From: Promethearchaeia archaeon
Lineage (GTDB): Archaea > Asgardarchaeota > Lokiarchaeia > Sigyniarchaeales > SOKP01
DNA: 64,000 bases
Assembly (NCBI GenBank): GCA_029856155.1
Contig: JAHQWL010000072.1
Span: forward strand, 58,683 to 122,682
Reading direction: 5' to 3'
Shown here: positions 20,872 to 29,312 of the stretch, in pieces
Numbering within the stretch: the stretch's first letter is position 1
Layout of the letters: the number at the start of each line of letters is the position of its first letter
Translations under genes and position numbers: made by a program
Notes under the pieces: model-generated
Seen by the model: the letters and a program-made list of their open reading frames with translations, nothing else
Database searches by the model: none
What the model was told of the DNA's origin: nothing

Positions 20872-22005
20872 TTACTTTTCTACTGTTGATGGAAAATTCT
20901 CATTTTCCTCTTTCCATAATCTCATTTCCTTCTTATGCCCAAAAAATACAAGAACAAAAAAAATTGAAAAATAAATTGTTAAAATTAATAATGTAAAAAA
21001 ATAATATTTGTATGTAAAACTCATAAAATGTAAAGCCAACCCTATTATAAAACCAGTAAATAACCTCGATCCTGTAGTACTTTTTCTTAATAAAAGCCTT
21101 TGGGTCCCCCAATCTATAAGCCCTGGTATTGGCAGGATTATACACATAAGTAATGCTATTTCTGCACTAAATTCCACTTGGAAGATTTTAGCAGTTAAAT
21201 ATGTCGTGAACATTGCAGACAATCCCCCAAGTATTACACCCGAACATCTTGTGCAAAAATATATTTTAGTTCTTCCAAATTGGAGATAAAAAGTATGATC
21301 ACTCGCTGAAAGAGGATGATGTGTTAAGATCATATAATACAAATGTTTTTCCTCTTTAGCAAGAATTCTATCATAGATGAGGAGAAATACTGGTATTACA
21401 AATATTACTGAAATAATTGCTTGAAGAAAGAATTTAAAACCATAATTTATCACGATAACTTCGATTGTGTTTTGATTAGGATAAATGAAAAATTGAAAAA
21501 CAATAATGAGACTAAAGACTATAAAGGATGCAATGATAAGAGCAATAAACGTATAATATACTTTAATCCCATCATGATATTTTAAAGGGTGATATTTATA
21601 GATTCCATATAAAAACCCTAATGCGCCTATAATAATACACCATTCAATATAAAAAGTATGATAAAAAGCTAATTGATATAGCAATTCTCCTAGAAAACCT
21701 GATATTAATCCTTGAATTGGACCTGCTAATATTGAAAAAAATGTAAAAATCAGAAGAGTTATGCCAAATTGTATTGAAAATTCCTGATTCGTTATATAAA
21801 TTGTAGAAATGGAGCCAAAGGGTTCAGAAATATACACATAAGAAATTATAATAAAAGCTATAATTAAAAGATTTAAAAAAATGACCCGTACAATATTATT
21901 TTGCTCCTTTTTCTGAGCAGGTTCAGTCAAGGTAAACCCATACTTTTTATTTATGTGTCTTTCAAATATTAAATGTGAAGAGATCTTAATTAAAAATCTC
22001 GTCAA
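20872..22005 (-). CDS. Membrane protein with C-terminal DUF2085-like domain
   Basis: HHPLSASDHTFYLQFGRTKIYFCTRCSGVILGG resembles the DUF2085 signature; N-terminal multi-TM region. Confidence 0.75.
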   Translation of the reverse strand: MTRFLIKISSHLIFERHINKKYGFTLTEPAQKKEQNNIVRVIFLNLLIIAFIIISYVYISEPFGSISTIYITNQEFSIQFGITLLIFTFFSILAGPIQGLISGFLGELLYQLAFYHTFYIEWCIIIGALGFLYGIYKYHPLKYHDGIKVYYTFIALIIASFIVFSLIIVFQFFIYPNQNTIEVIVINYGFKFFLQAIISVIFVIPVFLLIYDRILAKEEKHLYYMILTHHPLSASDHTFYLQFGRTKIYFCTRCSGVILGGLSAMFTTYLTAKIFQVEFSAEIALLMCIILPIPGLIDWGTQRLLLRKSTTGSRLFTGFIIGLALHFMSFTYKYYFFTLLILTIYFSIFFVLVFFGHKKEMRLWKEENENFPSTVEK

Positions 22006-22657
22006 GGTCTTCGATTAACTTCTTCTTTGTCATTTCAAAACCCAATCGCAGTACTTTCAGGATAATATTCCTTCCTAGGAACACCTTTAAAATAGTATCA
22101 TCCTTTTCCACAACTGCAATTCCTTCATCATTATAATCAAGCTGACGTTTTAAAGCTTCATATGCTTTTTCTTTTGTTTTAAAAGTTGCTCTAGATAACT
22201 CACTGTATCCTTTAACATCATCAGTTACTTTTAGAAAAAGGATACTTTCTTCTATTTGCGTTATAAAGCATTTCTTAGTTACTTCCTTTAATTTTCTATA
22301 GTTTTGGTGAGTATTTTTACACTGACGATCTGTCTGATCGTTTTCTAAATATATAGGAAAATTCTTATTGACAATATGATCAAATTTCTCTTTTGAGATC
22401 TCTCCATTTTGAACTAATTCTTTCGCGGAATCAAGTGTAACTCGAATTTGTTCTAATGTACCAATTGTTGCTTCCTTGTCGCTCCAGTATTTATAAAATG
22501 CTTTAATTATTGGTTTAACTACAAAATTTAAAGTGCCAGCATCTAATTCAGTATCAATGAGATTTTTTCCATAATTAAGGCTTGTCTCCATTTGCTCAAT
22601 CATCCTTTTCTCTAAGATCTTATAGTTTCTTTCTATGTAATCCATTATTAAGCCCAA
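21986..22657 (-). CDS. Hypothetical protein, tandem paralog A
   Basis: Full-length similarity to 22756-23418. Start is probably Met5 (22645), matching MDYIERNY of the paralog. Confidence 0.82.
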   Translation of the reverse strand: MGLIMDYIERNYKILEKRMIEQMETSLNYGKNLIDTELDAGTLNFVVKPIIKAFYKYWSDKEATIGTLEQIRVTLDSAKELVQNGEISKEKFDHIVNKNFPIYLENDQTDRQCKNTHQNYRKLKEVTKKCFITQIEESILFLKVTDDVKGYSELSRATFKTKEKAYEALKRQLDYNDEGIAVVEKDDTILKVFLGRNIILKVLRLGFEMTKKKLIEDLDEIFN

Positions 22658-22755: not shown

Positions 22756-23418
22756 TTATTTATTGTTATATGTCTCATTGAGTGCTTTAATAAACTCTTC
22801 CCTAGTCTGATCAAAACCTTTCCTTAATGCTTTTACAATTATCTTTCTCCCAACGGGGAGTTTAAGAATGGATGGATCGTTTTCAACTATTTTAACACCT
22901 TGATCAGTAAAATCTAATTGTTTCATTAAATTTTTTTTAGCTATTTCTTTTGAAGGAAATGCTATTCGACATAAATCTCCATAATTATCTACTTCATCCG
23001 TTATCCCTAATAGTTTTACTACTTCTTTTAAATAATTGATAAATGTTTCTTTACTAACATGCTTTAATTTTTCATAATTTTTATGTTGTCTCGAGCATTG
23101 GCGTGTTGTTTGATCGGCCTCCAGGTATTTAGGAAAAGATTCATTAAGAATTTTATTGAAAACATCATTAGAATTACCCTTTAATAATAATTTCTTACCT
23201 GCATCTAATGTGAGGTTAATCTGTTTAAGTGTGCCATCTCGAGCATCATGTTGAGCCCAATAATCGTAGAAGGATTTTACGATTGGTTTGATAATGAAGT
23301 TTAAAAGACCTGTATCTAATTCTGTTTCCACGAGATTTCTTCCTCTAATAAGGGAATTTTCCATTTGTTCCATCATTCGTTGTTTTATAAGTTGATAATT
23401 CCTTTCAATGTAATCCAA
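22756..23418 (-). CDS. Hypothetical protein, tandem paralog B
   Basis: Full-length similarity to 21986-22657; shared DQTxRQCxxxHxNYxKL. Confidence 0.82.
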   Translation of the reverse strand: MDYIERNYQLIKQRMMEQMENSLIRGRNLVETELDTGLLNFIIKPIVKSFYDYWAQHDARDGTLKQINLTLDAGKKLLLKGNSNDVFNKILNESFPKYLEADQTTRQCSRQHKNYEKLKHVSKETFINYLKEVVKLLGITDEVDNYGDLCRIAFPSKEIAKKNLMKQLDFTDQGVKIVENDPSILKLPVGRKIIVKALRKGFDQTREEFIKALNETYNNK

Positions 23419-23613: not shown

Positions 23614-26600
23614 ATGACAACCTATTATTTTAAAATCTTAATTCTGGGTGAAACTGACACAATCCATTTTTATGTCTCAAGAGCTTTTGGTGAGCCCGGG
23701 GAAGACCAAGAAACACATTTCAAATGGTATAAAGAAACTAAAGTTTTTGATGATATATGCGATTTAGAAATTGATGCAATTACAAGTATCTCTGCAGATT
23801 TAGATGAAATAATTCCCATGGTAGACGGGATTATATATTTTTTGAATCCTGTAAACGAGGAAGAATCTGAGCTATTTGAAATGATACTTCCTGATATCTT
23901 TTCAGTAAAACGCGATATCCCTACAGTTGTTATGTTTTATGATCAGAACGGAATCCTCCCTGTTTCTGTGAATGATTTATTACAACATATATGGGTGAAT
24001 TTTCCAAGTTTGGAGGCATTTGCGAACCTCGCTCCCAATAATTTTCATCAAGCACTCCAATCTTTATGTTTGGCAATGATTAACGGCGATACACCATTAA
24101 ATATTGAAAATGCATGGATGAGATTTCCAATATTTATACAAATGGCCAATATCTATTTTAATAACCAAAATTATTATTATGCTGCTCAAGCTATTAGAAA
24201 AGCAGCACTCATAGCAGAAATATACAATAAAGAAGAGTTTTTTATAATTAGTGAACAAGCTGCTTATCTATATTCTAAAATGAATCTATATTTAGAAGCG
24301 AGTAAAATTTTAGAAAAAATAGATAAAAGAAAAGCGATAAATTTTAAAAAATTATATGCGGATGCGATAATACGAGAAGGTAATTTATTCTTTAATAAGA
24401 ATGAGTTTGAACAAGCTGCAAGAAACTACGAGAGAGCAGCTCAATGGTCGAGCATCGAATTATTAGATAAAACATTTATTTATGAGGCTTTTAGATTAGC
24501 AATTAATTCTTGGATTTCAGCTTGTAGAATTGATGATGCATTAAGGATCTTAGATAGTTTACCACATCAAGGTGTTATTCTTTTATTAAAAGAAATCTCA
24601 GATAAAATTGGTGCTGCTGCTGATTATTTAGTAAATATTAATAATTTTGAATCAGCAAGAGAACAGCTTTACCTTGCAATCAATAAATATCAACGTGAAG
24701 CTCTTTCCGATGAATTAAAAGAATTAACTAATAAACTTACAGAAGTATTAATTACATTTTTTAAACAACAGGTAAATGAGGAAAAAAAGCACGCTGCTAA
24801 AAATACATATGATGAGCTTGAAAATATGTGGAGCTCCTATAAAGTGAAAAAAGCAAATTTAGATTCAACTTTAGAAGAATTAATTAACCAGTTTTTTGAG
24901 GCTAATAATTTTGGAACAGCAACTATTTTGATTGACAAATTAAATTCAAGAAAATTAAAACAACAGTTAGCAAAAAATAGAGATGAATTTGAAGATAAAT
25001 ATGAAGCATTAAAAAAGAAAGAAGTAGAAGATTATATTAATAGGGGTGTGGCAATAATAAGAAGTTTTGTCGAAACTGAAATAGATCTCATAGCAGAAAT
25101 GAATACAAAGAAAATAACAGAAGCAAATGAATACGTTCAGCAAAACAATTATATTAGAGCAGCAAACATCTTAAAAAAACAGGCAGAATACCTTAAAAAA
25201 ATTGGTAAAGAAGATATAAAGGATCAAATCCTCACAAAATCATTAGATGTATTATTAGAAGGTATGGAATTTGAAAGTTTTTTTGTTTTTTTTAATGAAA
25301 TCTCAGCGGATATAAAAAAAAAATATTTAACTAGAATCTTTCCGAGATATTTTCAGAAATTACAAGATCTTCGAAATGTAGAAGATTTTGCAAGTAATGA
25401 AAAAATATTTGAAAAATCGATTAGAATTTATCGAAATCAAATGCTTTATGATCAATCTAAGGAAATTAGTTTAATTTTTATTAAAGTAATTAAAAGTGAA
25501 GCCTTAAGAATATTAGAAAGCGAGGGAGATCTTTCAGCAATTAATAAAGCAGAAATGTCTGTTAAAAAAGTTTTAAATATAGCATCAGCATATTTAGAGA
25601 AAGAAGAGAGCATAAATATCACATTTAACAAGATCTACAAGAAAGTATCTGAAATTTACATTGAACTGAATGACTTACATTTAGCTCAAGTTTATAATGA
25701 TAAAATTGAAAATAAAGAATACAAAATTGAAATACATAAGAAAATCGAGTCATTGGAAGCTGAACAAAGTGCTATTAGAGCTAAAAAAGCTATTGAAACT
25801 CGAAAAGGAGAGGTATTAAAAGAAAAAGGTTCTATTATTGAAAAAAGAGCACAAGAAGCGAAGTTAGATAAAGAAAATCAAATGAGGGAAAGAAGAGGGT
25901 TAAAAAGAGGTTACTTTAATAATGGGTTAACTCATTTGAGAAATCAACAATATGATAAAGCTTTTGAAGTATATAAAAGCACAATTAATCGATTAAGTTT
26001 AATAAAGAAATATAATCTAGCAGGAGTATCCTTAGTTGTTGCAATTCTAATATTTATGAAACAAAATAAATTTGGAGATATCAATGAGTTACTGAATGAG
26101 ACAAAAACAATATTATCTGGCTTAGGAAAATCTTTTTCTGAGACATTTCCAGTAACTCTCATAGAATATATAAATGATTTAAAAAATCTTCAAGAAGAGC
26201 AAAAATTCAAAGAATCCTTAAAGTTCTTAGAAAGTATTCCATTATTTGATGAGGAGTTGGAGTTATTAGAAGATTATTTAGGTGCAGATTATCAAAAAGA
26301 AGAAAAAGTAGAAAAAGTTAAAGATGAAGAACCTTCAAAAGAACCAGTAAAAGAAATATTATCACGAGCAGAAGTTGGGGAATTATCTAAAAAACAAGTG
26401 GAAATGGATCAGAGGTTTGGAAAAATCCACTCTAAAAAAGGAGATGCTAGAAGAGATAAAGAAAGAATCTTTATGAAAAGAAAACCAATGAGAAAAAGAT
26501 ACTATTCACCTATATTAGATATGCTAGAATCACAAAAATATGAAAAAGCAGCAATTAAATACTTAGAATTAGCAAATATACTTTTAAAAAGAAAAGACCT

Positions 26601-26874
26601 CGAAACCAGTTCTTTAATGGTCAATTTGCATTGTTTAGCTCTATTAAAGGTAGGAGATTCAATAAGTGAAATTAAAAATAATATTAATGATTATTTAAAT
26701 AGCTTAGGAGTTAATAAAAAAGTAGTTGAAGAAACATTCTATATAATGCTTATCTTGTTTCTAATTGACAGTAAACTATATAATTTTAAGAATTATCTCC
26801 ATAAAATTAAAGAAATGTTGGAAATCCTTCCCTTATTTGAAGAAGAGAAATTTTTGATAGATATTGAAGAATAA
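23614..26874 (+). CDS. Large protein: N-terminal Ras-fold-like domain without P-loop, fused to TPR/alpha-solenoid and coiled coil
   Basis: FKILILGE...MVDGIIYFLNP...IPTVVMFYDQNG fold cues, then repeated helical hairpins (YYYAAQAIRKAALIAE, EFEQAARNYERAAQW, NFESAREQLYLAINKYQ). Confidence 0.85.
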   Translation: MTTYYFKILILGETDTIHFYVSRAFGEPGEDQETHFKWYKETKVFDDICDLEIDAITSISADLDEIIPMVDGIIYFLNPVNEEESELFEMILPDIFSVKRDIPTVVMFYDQNGILPVSVNDLLQHIWVNFPSLEAFANLAPNNFHQALQSLCLAMINGDTPLNIENAWMRFPIFIQMANIYFNNQNYYYAAQAIRKAALIAEIYNKEEFFIISEQAAYLYSKMNLYLEASKILEKIDKRKAINFKKLYADAIIREGNLFFNKNEFEQAARNYERAAQWSSIELLDKTFIYEAFRLAINSWISACRIDDALRILDSLPHQGVILLLKEISDKIGAAADYLVNINNFESAREQLYLAINKYQREALSDELKELTNKLTEVLITFFKQQVNEEKKHAAKNTYDELENMWSSYKVKKANLDSTLEELINQFFEANNFGTATILIDKLNSRKLKQQLAKNRDEFEDKYEALKKKEVEDYINRGVAIIRSFVETEIDLIAEMNTKKITEANEYVQQNNYIRAANILKKQAEYLKKIGKEDIKDQILTKSLDVLLEGMEFESFFVFFNEISADIKKKYLTRIFPRYFQKLQDLRNVEDFASNEKIFEKSIRIYRNQMLYDQSKEISLIFIKVIKSEALRILESEGDLSAINKAEMSVKKVLNIASAYLEKEESINITFNKIYKKVSEIYIELNDLHLAQVYNDKIENKEYKIEIHKKIESLEAEQSAIRAKKAIETRKGEVLKEKGSIIEKRAQEAKLDKENQMRERRGLKRGYFNNGLTHLRNQQYDKAFEVYKSTINRLSLIKKYNLAGVSLVVAILIFMKQNKFGDINELLNETKTILSGLGKSFSETFPVTLIEYINDLKNLQEEQKFKESLKFLESIPLFDEELELLEDYLGADYQKEEKVEKVKDEEPSKEPVKEILSRAEVGELSKKQVEMDQRFGKIHSKKGDARRDKERIFMKRKPMRKRYYSPILDMLESQKYEKAAIKYLELANILLKRKDLETSSLMVNLHCLALLKVGDSISEIKNNINDYLNSLGVNKKVVEETFYIMLILFLIDSKLYNFKNYLHKIKEMLEILPLFEEEKFLIDIEE

Positions 26875-28073: not shown

Positions 28074-29312
28074 ATGTCTTCAGAAGCTTCTAGTTTTATA
28101 AAAGTCTTTTCGAAATTCTTGGATCCAGAATCCGTGAAAATTGATAAATTACATAAGGTTGATGATATTATAAAATTACCAATTCTATCATACAAATTTA
28201 TAGATAAAGAAGAATCGACCATAATGAAGCAGCTACTAGAAATTTCTACAATTGGAGATGCTTCTAAGTTAAATAAAGATGATCCATTTGAAAGCTTAAC
28301 TGAAATTGAAGAAACAGATGATTCAATTGAATTAACAGCAAGTCTACAACAAAAACTTGAGGAATTAAAGGTCAAATACCCCACTCTTGAAGAAAAATTA
28401 AAGAAAACTATCACCATCAGCTCACTTATTGTGAGTGTTAAAGAAGAAAAAGAAGGAATTGACGAAACAGCACAAAAAGTACTTGTTGCGGGACTTGATA
28501 ATGCTGGAAAAACAGCAACACTATCAAAATTTGGCGGACGATTAGGAATAAGTGATATGATCTCAACACATCCCACGAAAGGAGTTGTTCGAATGAAATT
28601 TGGAAGCAGTCATTTAAACTTATTTATCTGGGATTTAGGTGGGCAAGAAGAATATAGGGAGAGGTATTTAAAGAATCCAGAGCAATATTTTATGATGCTT
28701 GATTTGCTAATTTATGTAATAGATGTACAAGATCCAGATAGATTTGATGATGCTCTTGAATATTTTGAGAAAATTATAAACTCAATAATTTTATTGGAAG
28801 AAAATCCGTATATATTACTTTTTATCCATAAATATGACCCAGACTTGAAGAATAACCCTAAAATTCTCTTAAATATAGAACTTCTAAAGGATAATATTAA
28901 TGAACTATTTAAAACCAAGAATTATGATCTTCATTTGGAGATTTATTTAACATCAATATACTCATTGATCTCACGCGAACCACAATTCGCAAAATACATA
29001 AAGAATCTTATGAGTGCTAGTTATTCTTTGAGTGATCCTACAGTTAGGAAAGTTGAAGGTCTTGGAAAAACATTAGAAGAAACATTAAATGCGGTTATTC
29101 GACTATCAGAAAGTATTTCCACACAACTCAATGAACTTGACAATCGTCTTAGAGCTATAGAATCAGGAGCATTTCAAATTGCTCAAAGTGGGTTCCCTAT
29201 TGAAATTGCCAACCCAAATCAACCTTCAGCAAGGCCTCAAGAAAGTGCAAGGCTACAAGTATTAAATGAACTAAAGGATTTATTTGGTAAGAGACGTAGA
29301 TTGGATCTTTAA
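28074..29312 (+). CDS. Arf/Rag-like GTPase with N-terminal helical extension and C-terminal coiled coil
   Basis: VAGLDNAGKTA (Arf-like G1), WDLGGQEEYRERY (G3), FIHKYD (G4, HKxD as in Rag/Gtr). Confidence 0.9.
   Translation: MSSEASSFIKVFSKFLDPESVKIDKLHKVDDIIKLPILSYKFIDKEESTIMKQLLEISTIGDASKLNKDDPFESLTEIEETDDSIELTASLQQKLEELKVKYPTLEEKLKKTITISSLIVSVKEEKEGIDETAQKVLVAGLDNAGKTATLSKFGGRLGISDMISTHPTKGVVRMKFGSSHLNLFIWDLGGQEEYRERYLKNPEQYFMMLDLLIYVIDVQDPDRFDDALEYFEKIINSIILLEENPYILLFIHKYDPDLKNNPKILLNIELLKDNINELFKTKNYDLHLEIYLTSIYSLISREPQFAKYIKNLMSASYSLSDPTVRKVEGLGKTLEETLNAVIRLSESISTQLNELDNRLRAIESGAFQIAQSGFPIEIANPNQPSARPQESARLQVLNELKDLFGKRRRLDL

Follow-up and report, generated by a model that had tools for sequence, protein, structure and literature searches.

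A putative nucleotide-free Ras-like domain fused to a TPR-type solenoid in one order of Asgard archaea

In a 64,000-nucleotide stretch of an Asgard archaeal genome (hereafter the window), we identified a protein that is probably a structural scaffold, whose N-terminal domain would be a class i pseudo-GTPase serving as a non-switching docking module. Its fold, homology, family-wide loss of G motifs, purifying selection, architecture and conserved neighbourhood were obtained by computation. From these we infer that the domain would bind no nucleotide and be docked on the solenoid that follows it, and that the whole protein would act as a scaffold.

Asgard archaea are the prokaryotes closest to eukaryotes. 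Their genomes encode small GTPases by the dozen (this one has 82 Ras-profile matches), and little is known of what these proteins act through. A conserved, single-copy, nucleotide-free member on a large scaffold would be a concrete place to seek the assemblies that such GTPases serve, and would show that the conversion of a GTPase into a fixed structural part is not confined to eukaryotes. Open-access full-text searches for a pseudoGTPase in Asgard or a pseudo-GTPase in archaea returned no paper, which is weak evidence for novelty.

The open reading frame begins with ATG. The three segments quoted in the initial annotation were found in it: FKILILGE at residues 6–13, VDGIIYFLNP at residues 70–79 and IPTVVMFYDQNG at residues 102–113. 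Features of the gene and of its neighbours are listed in Table 1.

Table 1. Features of the scaffold gene and of neighbouring genes, with positions in the window.
Feature	Position	Strand	Basis or remark
Whole gene, 1086 aa: putative pseudo-GTPase domain, TPR-type solenoid, coiled-coil/helical units	23614..26874	+	
Predicted Ras-like pseudo-GTPase domain, residues 1–160	23614..24093	+	AF2; Foldseek vs PDB; profile-profile E 4e-9 to Rab-like GTPases
Ex-P-loop (G1) site, residues 12–19, GETDTIHF; GK[S/T] gone, predicted α1 from residue 14	23647..23670	+	
Ex-NKxD (G4) site, residues 109–112, YDQN	23938..23949	+	Homologue alignment
Conserved domain/solenoid junction, residues 158–175; W168 invariant, A167, R170 and P172 at least 90%	24085..24138	+	
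TPR-type solenoid 1, residues 167–440	24112..24933	+	Full-length model; Pfam TPR_2 1.4e-6
Long helix, residues 446–509 (64 residues)	24949..25140	+	Full-length model
Helical solenoid 2, residues 513–697	25150..25704	+	Full-length model
Long helix, residues 701–762 (62 residues)	25714..25899	+	Full-length model
C-terminal helical unit A, residues 764–889; sequence resembles unit B	25903..26280	+	
Linker, probably disordered, residues 892–917	26287..26364	+	pLDDT < 50
Long helix, residues 918–972 (55 residues)	26365..26529	+	Full-length model
C-terminal helical unit B, residues 976–1082	26539..26859	+	Full-length model
220-aa helical protein (A3), divergently transcribed	22756..23418	-	Linked in families f1–f3
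Paralogue of A3, in tandem with it (50% identity)	21986..22657	-	
Rag/Arf-like GTPase, ~130-aa N-terminal extension, P-loop intact (GLDNAGKT)	28074..29312	+	Gtr1_RagA 3.4e-20; Arf 5.4e-19

Predicted Ras fold of the N-terminal domain

Structure prediction of residues 1–175 with 52 homologues (AF2) gave a pLDDT of 90.7 and a pTM of 0.88. The predicted topology followed the complete Ras order, β1-α1-β2-β3-α2-β4-α3-β5-α4-β6-α5, and the three quoted segments fell on β1, β4 and β5, respectively. When the model was searched against the PDB with Foldseek, the best 50 listed matches were all Ras/Rab-type, with E-values of 7e-8 to 5.5e-7, TM-scores of 0.61–0.73 and identities of 9–16%; a TM-score of ~0.7 leaves room for genuine departures from Ras.

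Because Pfam had no match in residues 1–170 of the window protein, the Ras reading cannot derive from a family match. Across all members, the best Pfam match for the domain (Gtr1_RagA, 0.026, in 2 of 52) was unusable, and a PDB profile search with the domain returned only weak septin matches (E 0.1). A profile of the domain run through the phylum matched small P-loop GTPases of other Asgard genomes, with E-values down to 2e-8 per genome and alignments in register from β1 onward, and the majority of the inspected matches had both a P-loop and NKxD. Using hhalign, the domain aligned with Rab-like (E 4e-9) and MglA-like (4.9e-9) Asgard GTPases over ~156–160 colinear columns and with Rag-like GTPases at 0.0011 across 47 columns, compared with 0.36 for an unrelated control. 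Sequence profiles and structure prediction agree independently that the N-terminal domain has a Ras fold. The Ras-type strand/helix rhythm which the initial annotation had noted in the first ~170 aa is thus borne out by AF2, Foldseek and in-register profile matches, and where an N-terminal fold unrelated to Ras GTPases would have refuted its reading, a Ras-like fold was obtained (AF2, Foldseek, hhalign).

Loss of the nucleotide site

We searched the first 185 residues for GxxxxGK[S/T], or even GK[S/T], and found neither in any of the 64 homologues. Among 52 aligned sequences, the G1 lysine column never contained K (H, I, S, L, A and others occurred instead), the G3 aspartate column was mostly A or V, the G4 NK columns were mostly YD and the G5 SAK columns mostly F-V-N. 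NKxD and SAK were absent at the aligned positions; a few regular-expression matches sat elsewhere. The earlier observation that the P-loop position reads GETDTIHF, with neither GxxxxGK[S/T] nor NKxD, therefore extends to the aligned positions of all homologues. It had also been suggested that homologs with an intact P-loop would mark this copy as a divergent active GTPase; such a P-loop was present in 0 of 64. A search of 228 genomes of the phylum for intact-P-loop homologues gave the same picture, every family member being devoid of a P-loop, and the inspected matches outside the family were GTPases without this solenoid.

In the AF2 model β1 spans residues 3–11 and α1 starts at residue 14. 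Since helix 1 begins this early, the predicted "P-loop" has only two residues; canonical Ras P-loops are longer than that. In the fungal dynein light intermediate chain (LIC), an extra turn of α1 shortens the P-loop and clashes with nucleotide (PMC4359372). Motif loss and the early α1 argue strongly that the window protein binds no nucleotide. Class i denotes pseudo-GTPases that bind no nucleotide, and, following the published description of pseudo-GTPases (PMC5593906), we found a Ras-type G-domain fold and small-GTPase homology together with loss of G1, G3, G4 and G5; a class i (nucleotide-free) assignment is likely. The marks of an active small GTPase were lacking (P-loop in 0 of 64; NKxD and SAK absent).

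A separate 203-aa ORF (L132, genome G111, contig C6) encodes a GTPase-like protein of one domain, whose P-loop is degenerate (GDREVGRR) but whose NKLD is kept. This protein is perhaps a second, independent pseudo-GTPase.

Conservation and selection

In a working switch of the Ras superfamily, the G motifs and the switches are the most constrained parts. The conservation pattern of this domain, as read from the alignment, is the reverse. Entropy peaked in the loop that corresponds to switch I (2.80 bits, the least conserved element) and in α1, and was lowest in the turn at residues 70–71, in β4 and at the start of the solenoid. By column entropy, D71, P79 and W168 were invariant, followed by P103, W127, L151, F6 and R170. 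Conservation appears to have gone from the nucleotide/switch face and now lies in the β core and the solenoid junction. For residues 1–160, dN/dS against four relatives was 0.04–0.12, equal to or below that of most of the remaining protein, and the domain is therefore kept rather than decaying.

Solenoid and proposed arrangement

The initial annotation also described a TPR-like alpha-solenoid after the domain, and this part proved to be TPR-type and generic. Pfam TPR_2 matched two stretches near residue 249 above cut-off (1.4e-6), a TPR helix-pair pattern spanned residues 167–440 in the full-length model, and Foldseek with the solenoid returned generic TPR proteins (SKI3, CTR9, IFT-A) at low TM-scores, which argues that the solenoid has no specific relative. 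TPR_2 was matched in 9 of 33 homologues, and family and PDB profile searches of solenoid 1 agreed on a generic TPR. The full-length model (pLDDT 84.9) had a pTM of 0.42, which is too low to fix the relative placement of the blocks or to show how the domain packs against the solenoid. As modelled, the rest of the protein is a TPR-type solenoid interrupted by ~60-residue helices. No roadblock or longin domain was found in the same chain by Pfam, and the C-terminal part was all-helical in the model.

We propose that a small GTPase, Rab/Ras or MglA-like, was fused to a TPR-type solenoid early in Lokiarchaeales and that the fused GTPase then lost its nucleotide site. The start of α1 would occupy the place of the old P-loop, and the nucleotide pocket is probably closed. 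Anchored by the conserved junction (A167, W168, R170, P172) to the helices that open the solenoid, the domain may form a fixed protein-binding surface which steadies this end of the solenoid and offers a docking site to a partner. Assembling or spacing a larger complex would be the task of the solenoid, the long helices and the C-terminal repeat units.

Comparison with known systems

By analogy, the window protein resembles CENP-M/CENP-I and dynein LIC in its manner of working, rather than as a member of either family. CENP-M, a subunit of the HIKM complex of the human kinetochore, has a small-GTPase fold but cannot bind GTP; it acts together with CENP-I, a predicted alpha-solenoid that requires CENP-M for its stability (PMC4080450). 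However, CENP-M is a separate eukaryotic subunit, whereas here domain and solenoid lie in one archaeal chain, and the solenoid of CENP-I is HEAT/importin-like and that of the window protein TPR. With regard to common descent, no CENP-M chain occurred among PDB profile matches with E-values up to 10. Fungal dynein LIC likewise has a nucleotide-free Ras-like domain with an early α1 that shortens the P-loop, and is a docking module on a large protein, as is proposed here (PMC4359372). It differs in having its own insertions, dynein heavy chain binding and a C-terminal effector-binding region, and in being eukaryotic. The pG1 and pG2 domains of p190RhoGAP are class i domains, evolutionarily conserved, in a large multidomain protein (PMC5593906), but that protein is a GAP with a catalytic domain and has no solenoid.

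The Rab-, Rag/Arf- and MglA-like GTPases of Asgard archaea belong to the same superfamily and the same kind of organism (PMC10933270), but they retain the P-loop. A survey of GTPases in strain MKD1 described single-domain proteins, roadblock/longin fusions and fusions with unknown domains, and its listed architectures included no nucleotide-free domain on a TPR solenoid (PMC10933270). A bolder version of our proposal, which we regard as speculative and rather unlikely, is that Asgard archaea independently evolved a dead GTPase on an alpha-solenoid as an order-wide core scaffold which holds an active Rag/Arf-like GTPase in position, perhaps on a membrane. If true, exaptation from GTPase to scaffold would belong to the Asgard GTPase expansion rather than being an invention of eukaryotes; a dead GTPase with an alpha-solenoid is already known from eukaryotic machines, for example CENP-M/CENP-I.

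Distribution of the family

Whole-protein and later profile searches of 228 genomes of the phylum detected the family in a single order, where 71 of 79 genomes, spread over four families (f1–f4), encode it; it was not found elsewhere. Two further weak matches did not include the N-terminal domain. This occurrence, together with the domain dN/dS of 0.04–0.12, is more than chance. The gene is single-copy, the only significant match of the solenoid profile in its own genome being this ORF. Homologues were either ~1060–1110 aa or ~1235–1260 aa in length, the long form having an extra stretch of helix between units A and B. The scaffold gene was absent from G157 (92% completeness), and its absence from some genomes implies that it is dispensable in some lineages.

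Two candidates were rejected. A weak TPR match in G082 was a TPR protein with coiled coil but no Ras domain, and the long ORF behind a Ras match on contig C84 was an unrelated Arf-like GTPase/PAS/kinase-like fusion. The latter (L079, 554–3946, minus strand, genome G000) encodes 1130 aa in which an Arf-like GTPase with an intact P-loop, PAS and histidine-kinase-like regions were recognized by eye; such a fusion may connect small GTPases with two-component signalling.

Alternative explanations

The strongest alternative, though we consider it doubtful, is that the domain pairs with the nearby Rag/Arf-like GTPase, either as the inactive half of a heterodimer or as a fixed effector or regulator, and that the solenoid localises this GTPase. 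A G-domain heterodimer, SMG8-SMG9, has been reported (PMC5473137). In f1, on the side of the scaffold gene away from the 220-aa gene, the order is scaffold gene, TFB gene and Rag/Arf-like GTPase gene, and where the flank is long enough the GTPase gene lies near the scaffold gene at almost every f1 locus. Within genus g9, G154 and G156 have both genes; G157 and G155 are without the scaffold gene, and a full-length GTPase orthologue was not found in them. This joint absence is suggestive of a functional link, though one event might account for it. Other loci argue against pairing: no GTPase neighbour was seen in the examined flanks of f2–f4 loci, the two genes are ~13 kb apart in G118, and f3 genomes such as G088 and G089 have the scaffold with only weak matches to this GTPase. 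The last observation led us to reject a strict dependence of the scaffold on the neighbouring GTPase.

Less probable again is a degenerate G protein whose non-canonical residues still bind GTP/GDP or some other ligand, with a stabilising and not a switching role. Pseudo-GTPases of classes ii and iii exist (PMC5593906), human LIC1 binds GDP (PMC4359372) and the β1 glycine is retained in 46 of 52 sequences of the family. Against this, the G1 lysine occurs in 0 of 52, G3, G4 and G5 are changed, no conserved replacement motif was found at the changed columns of the 52 sequences, and α1 fills the loop in the AF2 model.

The low sequence identity (~13%) and the lack of a Pfam match would also suit another three-layer α/β domain, such as a CheY-like receiver, but this is very improbable given an antiparallel β2-β3 hairpin and six strands in Ras order (AF2), best 50 listed Foldseek matches that are all Ras/Rab, and profile matches to P-loop GTPases that extend across the whole domain (E 1e-8 to 1e-9). 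A functionless domain in a decaying GTPase fusion, which the lost motifs and the few genomes without the gene might bring to mind, has practically no weight, as it is ruled out by the dN/dS of 0.04–0.12 and opposed by a mean column identity of 56% in the domain versus 47% in the whole protein and by retention of the domain across the four families of the order.

Partners and other conserved neighbours

For the preferred reading, a structural scaffold with a docking module, the partner at a guess would be the 220-aa protein or the Rag/Arf-like GTPase encoded nearby. The protein may serve as a scaffold for the active GTPases of this genome, as the initial annotation proposed; gene order and the one joint absence are suggestive.

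The 220-aa gene adjoins the scaffold gene in f1 and is a few kb away in most f2–f3 loci with enough flank. Pfam and PDB profile searches with the 220-aa protein gave no convincing match. Its family was found throughout the class, but not beyond the class within the phylum, and is therefore older or wider than the scaffold. In G157 and G155, the TFB gene directly neighbours the 220-aa gene (~120–135 bp), and a DUF2085 gene is also in place; this natural absence of the scaffold between the TFB and 220-aa genes lies at L152 5798–7487 and L153 392–2087.

The DUF2085 membrane protein (2.5e-12) is encoded at 20872–22005 on the minus strand of the window, and its gene is also retained close to the scaffold gene in f1 and at several f3 loci. 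In two f3 genomes, proteins of 628–775 aa are encoded directly downstream of the scaffold gene (L070 1513–3837, L071 2021–3904). The L070 copy had no Pfam match; by eye, the N-terminus of these proteins looks gelsolin-like.
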